Source of the DNA: Paracoccaceae bacterium | Lineage (GTDB): Bacteria; Pseudomonadota; Alphaproteobacteria; Rhodobacterales; Rhodobacteraceae | Direction: 5' to 3' | Assembly: GCA_016938875.1 (NCBI GenBank) | Contig: JAFGTV010000056.1 | Location: forward strand, 1 to 59,917 | DNA length: 59,917 nt | Shown here: piece after piece, positions 2,422 through 37,753 of the stretch | Layout of the letters: each line of letters opens with the position of its first letter | Position numbering within the stretch: the first letter of the stretch is position 1 | Notes under the pieces: model-generated | What the model was told of the DNA's origin: nothing | Databases searched by the model: none | The model's input: the letters and a program-made list of their open reading frames with translations, nothing else | Position numbers and translations under genes: made by a program

Positions 2422-3138
2422 CTAGGGATGCGGCGCAAGGTCCACGGGCAGCGCACCGGCCAGCGTCACGCCCCGCACGTCGATCGCGGTGGCGTGGCAG
2501 ATCACCTCGACCCCGGCGGCGCGGGCCCGGGCGCTGGCGCGGGCATAGGCCGGGTCCAGATCGGCGGCCAGCCGGAACCGCGCGCAATCGGTGCGCTGCA
2601 CCAGGTAAAGTAGAACCGCACGGTGCCCGGCGCGCGCCATCCCGGCCAGCTCTGCCATATGCTTGGCGCCGCGCGCGGTGACGCAATCGGGAAACTCGGC
2701 CCAATCCTCGGTCCGCCGCAGGTGCACATTCTTGACCTCGACATAGGCATCGGGCAGGCCGGGGCCGCGCAACAGGAAATCGACGCGGCTGTTGGTGCCG
2801 TATTTCACCTCTGCCCGGATGTCGCGATAGGCGGCGAGCGGGGGAACCTGCCCGCCCTCCAGCGCCTCGCGCACCACGCGGTTGGGCAGGGTGGCGTCGA
2901 TCCCGGCCCAGTGCCCGTCGGGCAATTCCGCCAGCCGCCAGGCATGGCCCAGCTTTCGCCTGGGGTCGTCGTTGGGTTCCAGCCAGACGCGCAGGCCCGG
3001 TTCGCCAAGCCCAAGCATCGCGCCGGGGTTGGGGCAATGGGCGGTGACCTCGGCCCCGCTGTCCAGCATCACATCGGCCAGGAACCGTTTATAGCGCCGG
3101 ATCAGGCGACCGGGCACAAGAGGGGTTTGAAAGCGCAT
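2422..3138 (-). CDS. sfsA: SfsA family protein (sugar fermentation stimulation homolog)
   Basis: 238-residue SfsA-family protein beginning MRFQTPLVPG. Family signatures include RYKRFLADV, CPNPGAMLGL and the nuclease-like core around VEVKNVHLRR. SfsA proteins are DNA-binding or nuclease-fold proteins first linked to maltose gene expression in E. coli; the cellular role in this lineage is not established. The ATG at 3138 fits the family N-terminus; the frame continues upstream without similarity. It is the first gene of a probable sfsA-map-hydrolase operon and diverges from the CinA-like gene with only 47 nt between the two starts. Confidence 0.9.
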   Translation of the reverse strand: MRFQTPLVPGRLIRRYKRFLADVMLDSGAEVTAHCPNPGAMLGLGEPGLRVWLEPNDDPRRKLGHAWRLAELPDGHWAGIDATLPNRVVREALEGGQVPPLAAYRDIRAEVKYGTNSRVDFLLRGPGLPDAYVEVKNVHLRRTEDWAEFPDCVTARGAKHMAELAGMARAGHRAVLLYLVQRTDCARFRLAADLDPAYARASARARAAGVEVICHATAIDVRGVTLAGALPVDLAPHP

Positions 3139-3155
3139 GAGAGGGCACCTATACC
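3127..3155 (+). promoter_or_regulatory. sigma-70-like promoter for the CinA-like gene
   Basis: TTGAAA at 3127-3132 and TATACC at 3150-3155 are separated by 17 nt, 31 nt before the ATG at 3186. The -35 overlaps the sfsA start region on the other strand. The -10 runs into the palindromic 19-bp motif at 3152-3170, so anything binding that motif would cover the transcription start. Prediction by consensus only. Confidence 0.5.
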
Positions 3156-3170
3156 GGGATGAAACCCCGG
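3152..3170 (+). repeat. 19-bp motif TACCGGGATGAAACCCCGG, copy 1
   Basis: The motif contains an inverted repeat CCGGG / CCCGG around a 7-nt centre. An identical copy lies at 10594-10612 on the minus strand. This copy spans the -10 and start region of the predicted CinA-like promoter and ends a few bases before the AAGGAGG ribosome site. It could be a protein-binding operator or a short leader hairpin; no family assignment. Confidence 0.55.
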
Positions 3171-3185
3171 ACAAGGAGGCCATGC

Positions 3186-3917
3186 ATGACCAACCCCACA
3201 GCCGCCATGCTGGTGATCGGCGACGAGATCCTGACCGGCCGCACCCGCGATGCCAACATGCACTTTCTCGCCGGAGAGCTGACCAAGCACGGCATCCGCC
3301 TGGCCGAGGTGCGCATCGTGCCCGACATCCAGGATCGTATCGTCGCGGCGCTGAACGCGCTGCGGGCGGGATATGACACGGTGTTTACCTCGGGCGGGAT
3401 CGGGCCGACCCATGACGACATCACCGCCGACGCGGTGGCCGCGGCCTTTGGCGTGGGGATCGACGTGCGCGACGATGCCTGCGCGATCATGCAGGATTAT
3501 TGCGACCGGATGGGGCGCGAGTTGAACGAGGCCCGCCTGCGCATGGCCCGCATCCCCGAGGGGGCCCGCCTGATCGACAACCCGGTTTCGGCCGCGCCGG
3601 GCTTTACCCTGGGCAACGTGCATGTGATGGCCGGGGTTCCGTCGATCTTTCAGGCGATGGTGGCGGGGGTTCTGCCGACCCTGACGGGGGGCGACCCGCT
3701 GTTGTCACAGAACCTGAACCTGCAACGGGCCGAGGGCGATATCGCCGTCGTCCTGGGCGGGCTGGCCGCCGATTTTTCCGACCTGTCCATCGGATCCTAC
3801 CCCTATCAGCGCGACGGGGTCTACGGCACCAATATCGTGATCCGGGGCACCGATGGCGCGCGCATCGACGCGGCGATGGCGCAGCTTTGCGCCCTGTTCC
3901 CCGAGGCCGTCGCGTGA
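3186..3917 (+). CDS. CinA-like competence/damage-inducible N-terminal domain protein (molybdopterin-binding fold)
   Basis: 243 residues of the MoaB/MogA-type fold found at the N-terminus of CinA (COG1058). Diagnostic motifs are GDEILTGRTRDAN near the N-terminus, TSGGIGPTHDDITAD and the VMAGVPSIFQAM stretch. The C-terminal CinA deamidase domain is absent, so it is a stand-alone domain of unproven reaction. The start at 3186 is set by AAGGAGG at 3173-3179; the in-frame ATG at 3159 lies inside the promoter motif and has no ribosome site. The stop overlaps the next start (GTGA). Confidence 0.9.
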   Translation: MTNPTAAMLVIGDEILTGRTRDANMHFLAGELTKHGIRLAEVRIVPDIQDRIVAALNALRAGYDTVFTSGGIGPTHDDITADAVAAAFGVGIDVRDDACAIMQDYCDRMGRELNEARLRMARIPEGARLIDNPVSAAPGFTLGNVHVMAGVPSIFQAMVAGVLPTLTGGDPLLSQNLNLQRAEGDIAVVLGGLAADFSDLSIGSYPYQRDGVYGTNIVIRGTDGARIDAAMAQLCALFPEAVA

Positions 3918-6171: not shown

Positions 6172-7074
6172 CTAGGCGACGGGCGTACCGCTCGAGAAAT
6201 GTTCCGCCAGGAAATCAATGAACGCGCGCACCTTGGGTTGGGTGAACCGCCCCGGGGGGTAGACCGCGTAGATGCCCAGCTTTTCATGGGGCAAATCCGG
6301 GATTGCCTCTTCGACCAGACCGTTCTTCAACGCGTCGGCAAAAAGAAAGCCCGGCAGATAGGCAATGCCCAGTCCCGCGATCGCCGCGTTCAGCAACGAC
6401 TGGCCGTCATTGACCGTCAACCAGCCCGCCGTGCGCACCTGCCGCCGCTCGCCCGAGGGGGCGGTGATTTTCCACAGGTTTCCGTTGGCCTGGTTGGAAT
6501 AGTGCAACAGCTTGTGCTCGTTCAGGTCGTCGATACGCTGCGGGTGGCCGTATTTCTGAAAGTAAGACGGCGCGCCGATCATCCGCTTGGTCGTCTCGGT
6601 CAGCTTGCGCGCGCGCAGGGTGCTGTCCTCCAGCTCTCCGACACGGATCGCCATGTCGAACCCTTCGGAAATCAGTTCCACGTAGCGGTTGTTCAGCACC
6701 ATGTTCACGGTGATGTCGGGATATCGCAGCAGGAATTCCCCCAGGAGCGGGGACAGGTGGTTGACCCCGAAATCGGTGGCGACCGAGATTCGCAAAAGCC
6801 CCGATGGCGCCGACTGCATCGAGGTGACCAGCGCGTCGGCTTCGCCTGCGTCGTTCAACACCCGGCGGGCGCGGTCGTAATAGGCCAGACCGATTTCGGT
6901 CGGGCTGACGCGGCGTGTGGTGCGGTTCAACAGGCGCGCACCCAGGCGGGCCTCCAGCGACGAGACGTGCTTGGACACCGCGGACTTGGAAATCCCCATC
7001 TTTTTCGCAGCATCGGTAAAGCCGCCCTGATCCACCACTGTGGCGAAGGCTTCCATCTCGGTCAGTCGGTCCAT
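6172..7074 (-). CDS. LysR family transcriptional regulator
   Basis: 300 residues. A winged helix-turn-helix at residues 1-60 (MEAFATVVDQGGFTDAAKKM, SAVSKHVSSLE) is followed by a type-2 periplasmic-binding-like effector domain starting near residue 90. Close in pattern to the DsdC/YhjC-like LysR group that is common in proteobacteria. It ends 12 nt from the convergent OmpA-like gene and lies downstream of the fadH-like gene, so its own target is not obvious from position. Confidence 0.9.
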   Translation of the reverse strand: MDRLTEMEAFATVVDQGGFTDAAKKMGISKSAVSKHVSSLEARLGARLLNRTTRRVSPTEIGLAYYDRARRVLNDAGEADALVTSMQSAPSGLLRISVATDFGVNHLSPLLGEFLLRYPDITVNMVLNNRYVELISEGFDMAIRVGELEDSTLRARKLTETTKRMIGAPSYFQKYGHPQRIDDLNEHKLLHYSNQANGNLWKITAPSGERRQVRTAGWLTVNDGQSLLNAAIAGLGIAYLPGFLFADALKNGLVEEAIPDLPHEKLGIYAVYPPGRFTQPKVRAFIDFLAEHFSSGTPVA

Positions 7075-33499: not shown

Positions 33500-34630
33500 T
33501 CAGGCCCGCGCGGCGGCCAGTTTCGCGGCCAGGTGCGCCGGGTCGATCACGATCGTCCCATCGGGGCGCTCGTCGATCCGGGGGTAATAGACCTGGTCGA
33601 GATAGCTCATGAAGGCCGCGCGCAGGGCGGGATCAAAGCCCAGCGCGCCGGGATCGGCCAGGACCTCGGCCAAGACCTCGGCGGAATGGGCGGGGGTGAC
33701 GAGGCCCGGCAGGGCAAAGAAAGCCTGTCCCAGCACGATCACCGGCTTGTCATGAAAAAACGCCTGAAGCCCCATCGACGAATTGATCGTCAGCACCCCT
33801 GCGGATGCCGCCAGCTGGGCAAAGCTGTCGGTGGCGTTGTCCACCACCAGCCGCCCGCCGCTGTCGCCCACCGCCCGCGCCAGCGGTTCGGCCAGAGAGG
33901 CCCGCGCCGAGGGATGTTCCTTCAGCCGGATATGCCAGCCCGCGGGCAGCGCCCGGGCGGCATCGGCCAGGGCGGCGATCATCCCCTCGACACTGCCGAC
34001 CCAGCCGGAGAAAAGCGTGATCTGGCTGTCGTTGGGCACCTGAAGCGGGCAGAACAGAAACCGGCCCGCCTGCGACAGCGCGTCGCCGTCCCCCTGCCCC
34101 ACATCCGCCCGGCGCGAGGCACGCGCGGTCAGATTCGCCCCCAGCGCGCGCCACCCCTCGCCCCGACGGGCCGGATCCTCGGCGGCCCAGTCCAGGTAAA
34201 ACCGCGGATCGCGCGGCAGGCCGTTCTGCGCGTTCACCCCCACAGGGTCCAGCGTGATGCGCCCCGGAAAGGGGGCCAGTTCGGCATAAAGCCGCCCGGC
34301 GCCGGCATCCCGCGCCCCCTCCATGAAGGCGCGGCGTGATCCGGTCAGGCCATTCCAGCACACCGCCAGACGGTCGGGATGTCGGCTGAAATAGCGCCGT
34401 GACCAGTTGTATTGCGCACGGATCAGGGCGCGCTTGAAAAACCGGCCCACGGGCCCCTTGGGCTGGCGCTTGGCCACGGCCAGCGCCGCGGCGCTGCGCG
34501 CATCGCTTTCGGGAAAGCCCCGGAACGACAGCCCGATAAAGGCCAGCCGCACGCCCCCACCTGCCCCATGGGCGATGGCCGCAAAGATCGCGTCCTTGCG
34601 CCGGGTCCATCCCCTGAGCCAGGCGATCAT
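33500..34630 (-). CDS. capsule polysaccharide biosynthesis family protein (KpsS/LipB-like)
   Basis: 376 residues, with a fold similar to capsule polysaccharide export/biosynthesis proteins (Capsule_synth family): GWHIRLKEHPSA in the core, then LTINSSMGLQAFFHDKPVIVLG, the segment that in KpsS/KpsC-like enzymes binds the nucleotide sugar. KpsS-type enzymes add Kdo to a lipid acceptor at the capsule reducing end; the substrate here is not shown. The ATG at 34630 lies 9 nt after the CBS gene stop (an in-frame TTG at 34636 is possible), so it may belong to the cassette upstream. Confidence 0.8.
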   Translation of the reverse strand: MIAWLRGWTRRKDAIFAAIAHGAGGGVRLAFIGLSFRGFPESDARSAAALAVAKRQPKGPVGRFFKRALIRAQYNWSRRYFSRHPDRLAVCWNGLTGSRRAFMEGARDAGAGRLYAELAPFPGRITLDPVGVNAQNGLPRDPRFYLDWAAEDPARRGEGWRALGANLTARASRRADVGQGDGDALSQAGRFLFCPLQVPNDSQITLFSGWVGSVEGMIAALADAARALPAGWHIRLKEHPSARASLAEPLARAVGDSGGRLVVDNATDSFAQLAASAGVLTINSSMGLQAFFHDKPVIVLGQAFFALPGLVTPAHSAEVLAEVLADPGALGFDPALRAAFMSYLDQVYYPRIDERPDGTIVIDPAHLAAKLAAARA

Positions 34631-34639
34631 CCCCAACGC

Positions 34640-35053
34640 TCAGTCCGGCCGGTGGCTTTGATCCGCAAAGCGGGCCACCATATCGCGCTGGGTGACGATG
34701 CCCACCAGCGTATCCTCGCGGGTGACCAGCGCGCGGGTCAGGCCCAGACGGGCAAGCTGGCGGATCGCGTATTTGATGTTCATCCCGGCCGAGACCGTGA
34801 CCACCGGCTTGCGCATGATCTCATAGACCGAAACCCGCTCGAAGCTGCGGTTCTTGGCCACCACTTCGCGCGCGATGTCATAGACGGTGACCAGGCCGAA
34901 CTCGTCCCCCTCATGGCGCCGTTCGATAATCAGCGAGCCGACGCGGGCGCGGTTCATCTGGTCGATGGCCTGGCGCACGCTGGCCAGCCCGTTGATGGTT
35001 TGCAATTCGTGGCTCATGACCTCGGCCACGGTGGTAAAGTTGCGCCCGCTCAC
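34640..35053 (-). CDS. CBS domain-pair protein
   Basis: 137 residues made of two CBS domains: TVAEVMSHELQTI...RVGSLIIERR and SVYEIMRKPVVTVSAG...LTRALVTRED. Each has the Gly/Asp end typical of adenine nucleotide-binding pairs (VTVYDIAREV, IVTQRDMVARF). CBS pairs usually sense AMP, ATP or related ligands. The GTG start at 35053 overlaps the stop of the PII-like gene (GTGA), coupling their translation. Confidence 0.88.
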   Translation of the reverse strand: MSGRNFTTVAEVMSHELQTINGLASVRQAIDQMNRARVGSLIIERRHEGDEFGLVTVYDIAREVVAKNRSFERVSVYEIMRKPVVTVSAGMNIKYAIRQLARLGLTRALVTREDTLVGIVTQRDMVARFADQSHRPD

Positions 35054-35403
35054 AGGTCTTCCTCCTCGATCTCGCTGCGGATCGAGGCGATCTGGGTGCC
35101 CAGCCCGATCACGTCCTCGATGTCGATCTGCATGGCCACGCCGTTGCCCGGCTCGGTCTCGAACCCGGCGGCGGCGGACACCTCTTCCAAGATGTGGCGG
35201 CAGACATGTTCCTCGACCAGCAACAGCACGATATCGCGCTGGCCCTCTACGGTCAGGCCCATGAAACTCTTTTTGGGTTTCAGCCCCTCGCCGCGCGCAT
35301 TGGTGATGACGGTGCAGCCCGTGGCGCCACTGGCGCGGGCGGTTTCCGTCACAAGGTCGGTCTTTTCGTCCTTGGTGATGACCAGGATCATCTTGAACTT
35401 CAT
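35050..35403 (-). CDS. PII-like signalling protein
   Basis: 117 residues of the PII trimer fold. The recognisable elements are the N-terminal strand [20 protein letters not shown], the ATGCTVITNARGEG segment entering the T-loop, and AGFETEPGNGVAMQIDIEDVIGL at the C-terminal ligand-binding strand. The T-loop lacks the uridylylated Tyr of GlnB, so nitrogen-type control by GlnD is not expected. A role in sensing a nucleotide for the adjacent DUF1538 membrane proteins is inferred from context. Confidence 0.85.
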   Translation of the reverse strand: MKFKMILVITKDEKTDLVTETARASGATGCTVITNARGEGLKPKKSFMGLTVEGQRDIVLLLVEEHVCRHILEEVSAAAGFETEPGNGVAMQIDIEDVIGLGTQIASIRSEIEEEDL

Positions 35404-36203
35404 TGCGGTCCTCCTTGCGGTTGGGGCGTTTTCCCGCCGTCCCCGCGTCCTGCGCGCCAGGCGCTGATCTGGGCATAGCCCATCACGGTAATCATCGGAA
35501 AGAGGCTGGCCAGCGCGATCAGCCCGAACCCGTCCATCAACGCGCTGCGCCCCGGCACGGTCGAGGCCAGCCCCAGCCCCAGGGCCGCCACCAGCGGCAC
35601 GGTCACGGTCGATGTCGTCACCCCGCCCGAATCGTAGGCCAGCGGCACGATCATGCGCGGCGCGAACATGGTCTGGACGATGACGATGGCATAGCCCGCG
35701 ATCATGTAAAGATAGAGCGGCGTGCCGGTCACGATACGAAACGTCCCCACCGACAGGCTGAGGGCGACGCCGATGGCCACCGCGATCCTGAGGCCCCAAG
35801 CCGTGATGCCCCCCGCCGACACCTCGCGCGCCTTGATCGCCACGGCGATCAGCGAGGGTTCCGCGATCGTGGTGGCAAAGCCTATGGCAAAGGCGAAAAT
35901 GTAGGTCCAGTAATAGTCGGTCCAGGTGATCGCCCCGATCGGCTTGCCAGCGGCCACAAAGGCCGGGTCGGTCAGGCTTTGGGCCATCATTTCGCCGATG
36001 GGGAACAGGGCCTCTTGCAGCCCGAACAGGAACAGCGCCAGCCCCAGAACGACGTAGAACGATCCGATCAGCACCTTTTTGAGATGCGGCACCTTGCGGC
36101 GCAGCACTCCGACCTGAAAGCCGACAAGCACCAGCGCGATCGGCGCTACATCCCGCAGCGTCCCCACAAAGGTATCGACCAGTTGCAGCACAAAACCGTT
36201 CAT
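35400..36203 (-). CDS. DUF1538 membrane protein, second copy
   Basis: 267 residues, about seven membrane segments. It shares with the adjacent copy the motifs [15 protein letters not shown] and [20 protein letters not shown] plus [16 protein letters not shown], so the two are paralogues that likely pack together. A hydrophilic C-terminal tail (about 245-267) is unique to this copy. DUF1538 proteins are thought to be transporters, but no substrate is known. ATG at 36203 overlaps the upstream copy's stop; its own stop overlaps the PII gene (ATGA). Confidence 0.88.
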
Positions 36204-36940
36204 GCCTGCACCACCACGCCAAAGATCAGCACAAAGACAATCGGCAGCAGGCTGGCAAAGGCGATGAGGCCAAAGCCGTCCACCATCGGGTTGCGCCCCT
36301 TGATCGCCGAGGCCAGCCCGACACCCAGCGCGGTCACCAGCGGCACCGTGATGGTAGAGGTCGTCACACCCCCGGAATCATAGGCAATTCCGACAATCTC
36401 GGGCGGGGCCACGGCGGTCAGCGCCACCACCAGCCCATAGCCCGCGATGATGAACCAGTGGATCGGCCAGCCCTTCAGGATGCGCCACACCCCGATCACC
36501 AGTGACGTGCCCACCGACACCGCCACCGTATAGCGCAGCGCCAGCGCGTGGCTGGCCACGGCCGCGTCGCCCGCCGGGATCACGCCGCCCTCTGCCATGA
36601 TCGACGCGGCCTCGGCGGCGATGGCGATCAGCGCGGGTTCGGCCACCGTGGTCCCGAACCCCAGGCCAAAGGCAAAGACCAACAGCCAGAACAGCGATCC
36701 TTTTTGCGCAAATGCATTGGCAAGGGATTCGCCCAGCGGAAACAGGGCCATTTCCAGACCCTGGATAAAGATCGCCAGCCCCACCATGACGAACACCAGG
36801 CCCAGGGCGATCTCGGCCAGGCCATCAATGGGCTGGTGCAGCACGACGATCTGGAAAAACCCGACGACCAGGACGATGGGCAAGAGGTCGCGGATCGTTC
36901 CCGCCACCTGCATCGTCATGCCGCGCATCACTTCGAACAT
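36200..36940 (-). CDS. DUF1538 membrane protein, first copy
   Basis: 246 residues, about seven membrane segments, no signal peptide. Core motifs [15 protein letters not shown] and [20 protein letters not shown] match the second copy, and both end in a DGFGLIA helix. In some genomes the two halves occur as one long protein; here they are separate, overlapping genes. This is the first gene of the cassette and has a good upstream promoter (TTGAGA, TAGAAG). Confidence 0.88.
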
Positions 36941-36973
36941 CGCGCCTGCCTGTTGACGTTGCCCCCTGCCCCG

Positions 36974-37002
36974 CTTCTAGGCAGAGGCGCGCCGCTTCTC
37001 AA
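36974..37002 (-). promoter_or_regulatory. promoter of the DUF1538-PII-CBS cassette
   Basis: Minus-strand TTGAGA (36997-37002)-17 nt-TAGAAG (36974-36979), about 34 nt upstream of the first DUF1538 ATG. The remaining 36941-37102 region, also upstream of the tesA-like gene's end, shows nothing else of note. Confidence 0.5.
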
Positions 37003-37102
37003 CCCCCAGGCGGCCACGCGCACCGGATCCCGAAGGCCCCGGGATCGGACCGGGACGGCGGGCGCCGGATCGCCCCGACCGATCGCGGGACCGGGGCCGC
37101 TG

Positions 37103-37753
37103 TCACGTCCCGTCGCCCGCGCGAACCCGCGCGATCAGGTCCAAAACCTTGGGCCCCATCGCCTCTACGATCAGCGCGACGCCTTTGGCGGTGGGGTGGA
37201 TGCCGTCGCCCTGCATATAGTCGCGCAGCGCGGCCCCGCGATCGGGCAGGTCGGTCAACCCCTTGAGAAAACTCGGGTAATAGAGGGCGCCATAGCTTTG
37301 CGCCAGGTCGGGATAAATGGCATCGAACGCGGTCTTGTAGTCGGGGCCGTAATTGCCAGGCGCACTCAGCCCGACCAGCAACACCTCGACCCCGGCGGCC
37401 TGGGCTGTCTGCATGATGGCATCAAGGTTGGCGCGCGTATTGGCCGGGTCGATGCCGCGCAGCAGATCGTTGCCCCCCAGCGCAACGATCAGCCCGCCCA
37501 CCTCGGGCGTCAGGGTCCAGGCGACACGCGACAATCCGCCCGCCGTGGTATCGCCCGAAACACCGGCATTGATCAGATTCACCTGCTCGCCCTGCGCGCG
37601 CAGCCAGCGTTCCAGTTGCGGGACGAACCCGTCCTCTTGCGGCAGGCCATACCCTTGGGTCAGGCTGTCGCCCAGGGCCGCGATGGTGATCTGCTTGGCT
37701 CCTGCGGTGCCTGCGCACAGGCTGACCGCAATTGCCGCCGCGAGGTTGAGCAT
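37103..37753 (-). CDS. tesA: TesA-like arylesterase / lysophospholipase (SGNH hydrolase)
   Basis: 216 residues starting MLNLAAAIAVSLCAG, a signal peptide indicating periplasmic location. SGNH block motifs: block I ALGDSLTQGYGL (nucleophile Ser), block II (INAGVSGDTT), block III ALGGNDLLRG, block V DGIHPTAKG. These give the Ser-Gly-Asn-His residues of the TesA family. It diverges from a ybbA-like ABC gene by 52 nt, the same arrangement as tesA-ybbA in E. coli. Confidence 0.92.
   Translation of the reverse strand: MLNLAAAIAVSLCAGTAGAKQITIAALGDSLTQGYGLPQEDGFVPQLERWLRAQGEQVNLINAGVSGDTTAGGLSRVAWTLTPEVGGLIVALGGNDLLRGIDPANTRANLDAIMQTAQAAGVEVLLVGLSAPGNYGPDYKTAFDAIYPDLAQSYGALYYPSFLKGLTDLPDRGAALRDYMQGDGIHPTAKGVALIVEAMGPKVLDLIARVRAGDGT

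Follow-up and report, generated by a model that had tools for sequence, protein, structure and literature searches.

The window analysed here, a stretch of 59,917 nt from a Paracoccaceae bacterium (contig JAFGTV010000056.1 of assembly GCA_016938875.1), carries on its minus strand, at 34640-36940, a cassette of four genes arranged head to tail. Two of them encode membrane proteins of the DUF1538 family, the third a PII-like signalling protein, and the fourth a CBS-pair protein. This is a real, conserved and widespread system, comprised of a known type of antiporter and a two-sensor control unit that we have not found described. The cassette probably encodes an UmpAB-type monovalent cation/proton antiporter with a dedicated cytosolic PII/CBS control unit, through which the exchanger would be gated by a metabolite. 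The gene identities, homology, linkage, the two-slot pattern of the sensors, and the predicted UmpA and PII folds come from our own analysis, while the heterodimer and the antiport come from a homologous pair of Halomonas. An earlier note on this DNA had described the cassette as a putative nucleotide-gated two-subunit transporter; its observation is partly confirmed, and its interpretation partly supported.

The first gene encodes the UmpA-like subunit (DUF1538, PF07556; 246 aa, 36200-36940), and is followed on the same minus strand by the genes for the UmpB-like subunit (DUF1538; 267 aa with a hydrophilic C-terminal tail, 35400-36203), the PII-like protein (117 aa, 35050-35403), and a stand-alone CBS-pair protein with a GTG start (137 aa, 34640-35053). 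As the earlier note had it, these four genes are joined by three 4-nt overlaps, which can be read directly: ATGA at 36200-36203 (umpA/umpB), ATGA at 35400-35403 (umpB/PII gene), and GTGA at 35050-35053 (PII/CBS gene). The family calls also stand, as all four proteins score above the Pfam cut-offs: 224 and 217.3 bits for the two membrane proteins (DUF1538, cut-off 22.6), 37.1 bits for the PII-like protein (P-II, PF00543, cut-off 25), and 70.2 bits for the CBS protein (PF00571, cut-off 24), which has two CBS stretches. The "one good promoter" claimed for the cassette was not borne out: a scan for sigma-70-type promoters yielded no sites on either strand of 34300-37300 (0.4 expected from shuffles), other promoter types being outside the scan. 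In the source genome, which is 95.34% complete, the cassette pair are the only two DUF1538 matches.

Each membrane protein is assigned to its own counterpart in NCBIfam, so that one UmpA-like and one UmpB-like subunit are encoded by adjoining genes. The former scores 359.6 bits to UmpA and 185.2 to UmpB, the latter 329.7 bits to UmpB and 207.3 to UmpA (models NF041627 and NF041628; equivalog cut-offs 490 for UmpA and 500 for UmpB). Both sequences contain the TTxAEPxLIA motif and the 15-residue motif reported previously, at residues 97-106 and 186-200 of the UmpA-like subunit. The motif columns of both subunits are mostly invariant or at least 90% conserved in a 107-row alignment (A2: the two window subunits, 50 of 51 UmpA rows, and 55 of 57 UmpB rows; redundancy was reduced at 85% identity, and rows were also selected by score). 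The conserved acidic residues of UmpA are D18, E101, D188, and D221. That the two proteins are paralogues, as had been suggested, is supported, and they are homologues of a pair shown to be heterodimeric in the accessible text of PMC5484666.

This homologous pair, UmpAB of Halomonas zhaodongensis, was cloned through rescue of E. coli KNabc and is reported there to be a heterodimer with pH-dependent Na+(Li+,K+)/H+ antiport activity (PMC5484666). The statement that the substrate is undescribed therefore has to be corrected, since exchange of Na+, Li+, and K+ against H+ has been published for the homologue. In E. coli, UmpAB alone conferred antiport, and a search of the paper for PII, P-II, and CBS found none of these terms (PMC5484666); hence the PII and CBS partners are plausibly regulators and not parts of the pump. 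The window pair resembles the Halomonas pair in having two paralogous DUF1538 subunits, overlapping genes, the same subunit order, and the same family models, and differs in scoring below the equivalog cut-offs; PII and CBS genes belong to its cluster, whereas such partners are not mentioned in the paper on the Halomonas pair. The transport class is known for the homologue, and homology supports the same class for the window pair, which cannot be called an equivalog. The UmpA equivalog cut-off was reached in none of the 398 genomes of a phylum sample and none of the 369 genomes of a second class sample. The best-scoring relative (locus L141, 422.7 bits to UmpA) has both PII and CBS at the locus, and a search of plasmids for UmpA produced no Halomonas record among its matches. 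In the accessible parts of other papers, DUF1538 is listed among the key families in a growth-pH prediction model (PMC13255231), and UmpAB is treated as a salt-adaptation gene of cable bacteria (PMC12093952, PMC10030654); the terms P-II and CBS domain are absent from the text of PMC10030654.

The association of the four genes is conserved across genomes. In a sample of 240 genomes from the window's own class, including the window's own, DUF1538 was present in 20. A profile built from the PII alignment A1 (the window protein and 59 of 59 kept PII rows) was run on 230 genomes of the class at E ≤ 1e-6 and matched 21, of which 19 were among the 20 with DUF1538; in all 19, PII lay 44-111 nt from DUF1538. 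PII matches in the absence of DUF1538 were limited to two genomes of the 230, with E from 7e-7 to 1e-6. In the 20th DUF1538 genome (G150), a refined profile found an abutting PII gene (L234), and thus PII adjoins DUF1538 in 20/20 DUF1538 genomes of the sample. The PII of G059 had the appearance of being unlinked, but it is cut by the contig end. G789, with a weak match to the UmpA model and no PF07556 match, was discarded. One PII match beside DUF1538 (G075:C1:50198-50524) has a single in-frame TGA, and is either a decayed copy or a sequence error.

Among the named relatives, which are the best 80 of 521 from the genome scan and hence biased to near relatives, all four genes are on one strand in 75; at L073, L088, L108, and L109 the locus runs off the contig. 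Possible 4-nt overlaps, counted at loci with both genes, were found for UmpA/UmpB in 33/79, for UmpB/PII in 27/78, and for PII/CBS in 60/76, which makes an overlap the rule for the last pair only. Other flanking families are rare, the commonest (a response regulator, named by eye) occurring at 14 of the 80 loci and the next at five. The organisation of the cassette is beyond chance. The earlier note had stated that a lack of conserved linkage across genomes would count against its reading; the survey of genome neighbourhoods favours conserved linkage of the cassette genes. A mirror comparison of the proteins from 74 loci gave Spearman coefficients of 0.53-0.72, which include shared species history and are not used as evidence.

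UmpA-type matches are also frequent in two further samples, with 125/398 genomes and 43/213 genera in the phylum sample and 126/369 genomes and 99/272 genera in the second class sample. At the best-scoring loci of these two samples (L111-L169), PII was present within a short stretch in 58 of 59. The 59th (L148) is not a PII-less case, as a longer stretch (L223) shows PII and CBS ca. 1.4 kb further on. A transposase-like open frame, named by eye, splits this cassette between umpB and the PII gene (L223, 2393-3772). Adjacency of PII has been seen in both Pseudomonadota and Bacillota. Our literature search found no description of the linkage of PII and CBS to a DUF1538 antiporter, although most subscription journals were outside the search and the linkage may be known elsewhere.

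The number and kind of sensors vary in genomes where UmpA and UmpB are fused. Diversity or a weak score was the basis for picking these loci, which are not a random sample; "no CBS" refers to the fetched stretch only, which in some cases stops shortly past the second PII. All 13 fused-UmpAB genomes with CBS have PII too (L170-L174, L215-L222), while 19 of the 20 without CBS have a second or tandem PII. The second-PII calls were made partly with a profile trained on such sequences, and a comparison with A1 in HHalign provides an independent check: the probability for the second PII (16 of the 19) was 93.7 with A1, 99.2 with the first PII, and 0.1 with CBS. Nine plasmid records match UmpA, and eight of them were examined. 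In six of six clostridial plasmids, a tandem PII-PII protein comes after a fused UmpA-UmpB (annotation is lacking for L182 and L183, whose calls rest on our own profiles), and two of two alphaproteobacterial plasmids carry UmpA, UmpB, and a single PII. Two sensor slots are thus usual, not universal, and the CBS slot is exchangeable with a diverged second PII, a feature missed by the earlier reading. The DUF1538-PII genes of L178 and L181 are plasmid-borne; typing classed the former plasmid as mobilizable (Methylocystis) and the latter as conjugative (Chelativorans). In L171 (3496-7714), two DUF1538 systems stand back to back on one strand, in the order fused UmpAB, PII, CBS, PII, UmpA, UmpB.

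The UmpA-like protein was modelled with a mean pLDDT of 94.2 and a pTM of 0.85 (107 sequences). The model has two interrupted helices, with breaks at 99-102 and 192-198, at or beside the TTVAEP and DSGGVTTST motifs. In transporters, ions are commonly bound where a helix is interrupted and acidic residues lie close by. Comparison of the model with the PDB in Foldseek gave no match at E ≤ 0.001, SbtA included, and the sequence has no PDB relative at E ≤ 1. The predicted fold may therefore be new, but this is provisional, since a lone subunit may mask a fold seen only in the dimer. An internal sequence repeat in UmpA was looked for and not detected (HHalign probability 0.5).

The PII-like protein is predicted to have the PII ferredoxin-like fold. 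Its model (mean pLDDT 85.2) had 211 Foldseek matches in the PDB at E ≤ 0.001, with CPII, SbtB, and GlnK1 among the best; for CPII (5d4l_B), the TM-score was 0.79 by target and 0.64 by query, with an rmsd of 2.0. The T-loop region (residues 34-54) contains the least certain part of the model, yet G38, G40, F47, G49, and L50 are invariant in 60 sequences, which is what would be expected of a partner-binding loop. The B-loop glycines G86 and G88 and further positions are invariant in the same sequences. In the PII profile, G-T-G-I is aligned to G-D-G-R of archaeal PII and L-E-S-Q to I-R-T-G, and the window protein has GNGV. The canonical ATP/2-oxoglutarate residues of GlnB/GlnK are a GDGK-type B-loop and a C-terminal R-x-R.

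The CBS protein has a PDB relative, 5nmu, at 9.7e-19, and G-x-V-T-x-x-D stretches are found in both its halves and are partly conserved in its relatives. This is presumably the adenine nucleotide-binding motif of CBS domains. As for the PII ligand, the titles of PDB entries describe CPII and SbtB as adenine-nucleotide binders, and SbtA-SbtB has been studied with AMP, according to the accessible text of PMC8352866. Cyclic di-AMP was rejected for the genomes tested and is unlikely in this phylum, as the DAC family is present in none of the 50 UmpAB-bearing genomes of the window's phylum, compared to 11 of 14 controls (Clostridia were outside this comparison). The candidates after its removal are ATP, ADP, AMP, cAMP, or a non-nucleotide. 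A PII-like protein of Borrelia (PMC6516651) is a DUF2179 protein with no bearing on the cassette.

Based on these data, we propose that the two DUF1538 subunits form a heterodimeric UmpAB exchanger, and that the PII-like protein, probably as a trimer, docks on its cytosolic face through the conserved T-loop. T-loop docking is proposed by comparison with the complexes of SbtB with SbtA and of GlnK with AmtB, as described in the accessible parts of PMC8352866 and PMC10710835. Docking would depend on a small ligand, the likeliest being an adenine nucleotide or related metabolite other than c-di-AMP in these genomes, and would in turn open or close the exchanger. The CBS-pair protein, or the second PII in other lineages, would fill the second sensor slot and provide a second input. 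The role of the system would be extrusion of Na+ and K+ and control of cytoplasmic pH, coupled to the energy or metabolic state. That PII docks on UmpAB, which ligand it binds, which way control runs, and what the CBS protein does are matters of inference.

The PII-transporter pairs that suggested this scheme differ from the cassette in several respects. Like the cassette, the bicarbonate system SbtA-SbtB combines genes for a PII-like protein and a membrane transporter in one operon, and the predicted fold of the window PII matches SbtB as well as CPII; on the other hand, the window UmpA has no Foldseek match to SbtA, the second sensor is CBS in the window and a second PII elsewhere, and UmpAB is not known to be trimeric. 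AmtB-GlnK also has a PII gene beside the transporter, with the T-loop as the likely contact, but the window PII is without the canonical ATP/2-oxoglutarate residues, and no link to ammonium was seen. Transporters may also be controlled by CBS domains, as in OpuA. In MgtE, CorB, and MpfA, which appear in the accessible part of PMC10710835, the CBS pair likewise acts as a nucleotide sensor in ion or osmolyte transport, whereas in the cassette it is a separate small protein that can be replaced by a second PII.

A number of observations weigh against the proposed scheme. According to a review, PII control appears confined to transporters able to act as trimers (PMC10710835), whereas the published account of UmpAB is of a heterodimer. 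The canonical PII residues for ATP and 2-oxoglutarate are kept neither in the profile nor in the window protein, and with these residues lost, nucleotide binding by PII is a guess from the superfamily. With 359.6 and 329.7 bits, the window pair is below both NCBIfam equivalog cut-offs. Linkage is not without exceptions: the named relative L076 has no CBS, and L176, the clearest case, has UmpA-UmpB and no PII in ca. 1.2 kb downstream, where a DUF4236 gene and a YchF-like gene (YchF named by eye) follow (2467-3647). The two-slot pattern has exceptions as well. At L178, L181, and L235 there is one PII and no second sensor was found; in G685, the 20th of the fused genomes without CBS, one PII precedes a further DUF1538 gene at the end of the contig; the second PII is weak in L236, L237, and L238 (15-24 bits with our profile); and Pfam recognised neither of two second-PII examples tested. 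Finally, a candidate fusion that might have proved contact between UmpB and PII (L012, 2173-3336, and L029, from one genome) was rejected: at L012 the two are in one open frame with no stop between them, and PII has its own ATG and a strong ribosome-binding site.

Some of these points agree with other explanations. The PII-like and CBS proteins may not be gates and may act elsewhere, e.g., in nitrogen or energy metabolism, being co-transcribed with the antiporter; they might then signal the ionic state of the membrane. The accessible texts agree with this in that PII proteins can have several targets (PMC10710835) and UmpAB functions in E. coli without the PII and CBS partners (PMC5484666). 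Still, we consider it unlikely, as outside DUF1538 genomes the PII subfamily was matched just twice in the class sample, at E ~1e-6, and the adjacency is seen in Pseudomonadota and Bacillota, with both the membrane genes and PII occurring as fused pairs in Clostridia. It is also rather improbable that the antiporter is controlled by PII and CBS with no small-molecule switch, through expression or stability only, ligand binding by PII having been lost. The lack of conservation of the canonical ligand residues would fit this, but G86, G88, and other positions are invariant in the 60 sequences, and CPII and SbtB bind adenine nucleotides according to their PDB titles.

Alternatively, the PII-linked DUF1538 pairs could carry another solute, such as bicarbonate, ammonium, or a metal ion, antiport in Halomonas being special or secondary. 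In favour of this, the one functional study that we found covers a single DUF1538 pair, the window pair is under the equivalog cut-offs, and the other PII-controlled transporters in the accessible part of PMC10710835 carry ammonium, nitrate, urea, or bicarbonate. However, no flanking gene family indicates another substrate, the conserved acids D18, E101, D188, and D221 of UmpA would suit a cation/proton carrier, and DUF1538 is among the key families of the growth-pH model, as far as the accessible text tells (PMC13255231). We regard another solute as quite improbable, and favour the metabolite-gated cation/proton antiporter.

A broader and more tentative proposal is that these loci represent a widespread class of metabolically gated cation/proton antiporters with two DUF1538 domains, a fold unseen among solved structures, and two sensor domains (PII and CBS, PII and a second PII, or a fused PII-PII). 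If it is true, a PII-type system would set Na+ and K+ extrusion and cytoplasmic pH and not nitrogen or carbon uptake, and the transporter that carries PII would be a pseudo-symmetric dimer or a trimer built from such dimers. Gating of UmpAB by PII and CBS would couple a metabolic signal directly to the homeostasis of sodium, potassium, and pH. The frequency of UmpA in our samples points to a common bacterial ion-transport system, for which the literature found under its names treats only the membrane pair. Lineages in which a second PII replaces CBS offer a natural experiment in how two sensors share one transporter.

Two neighbouring genes were noted at the edges of cassettes. In the window, a Capsule_synth (PF05159) gene at 33500-34636 on the minus strand may start 3 nt past the CBS stop, and co-transcription with the cassette is possible; no such family is prominent beside the cassette in relatives. 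In L032, a second PII gene is located on the opposite strand (6391-6849, minus), just beyond a complete four-gene cassette.

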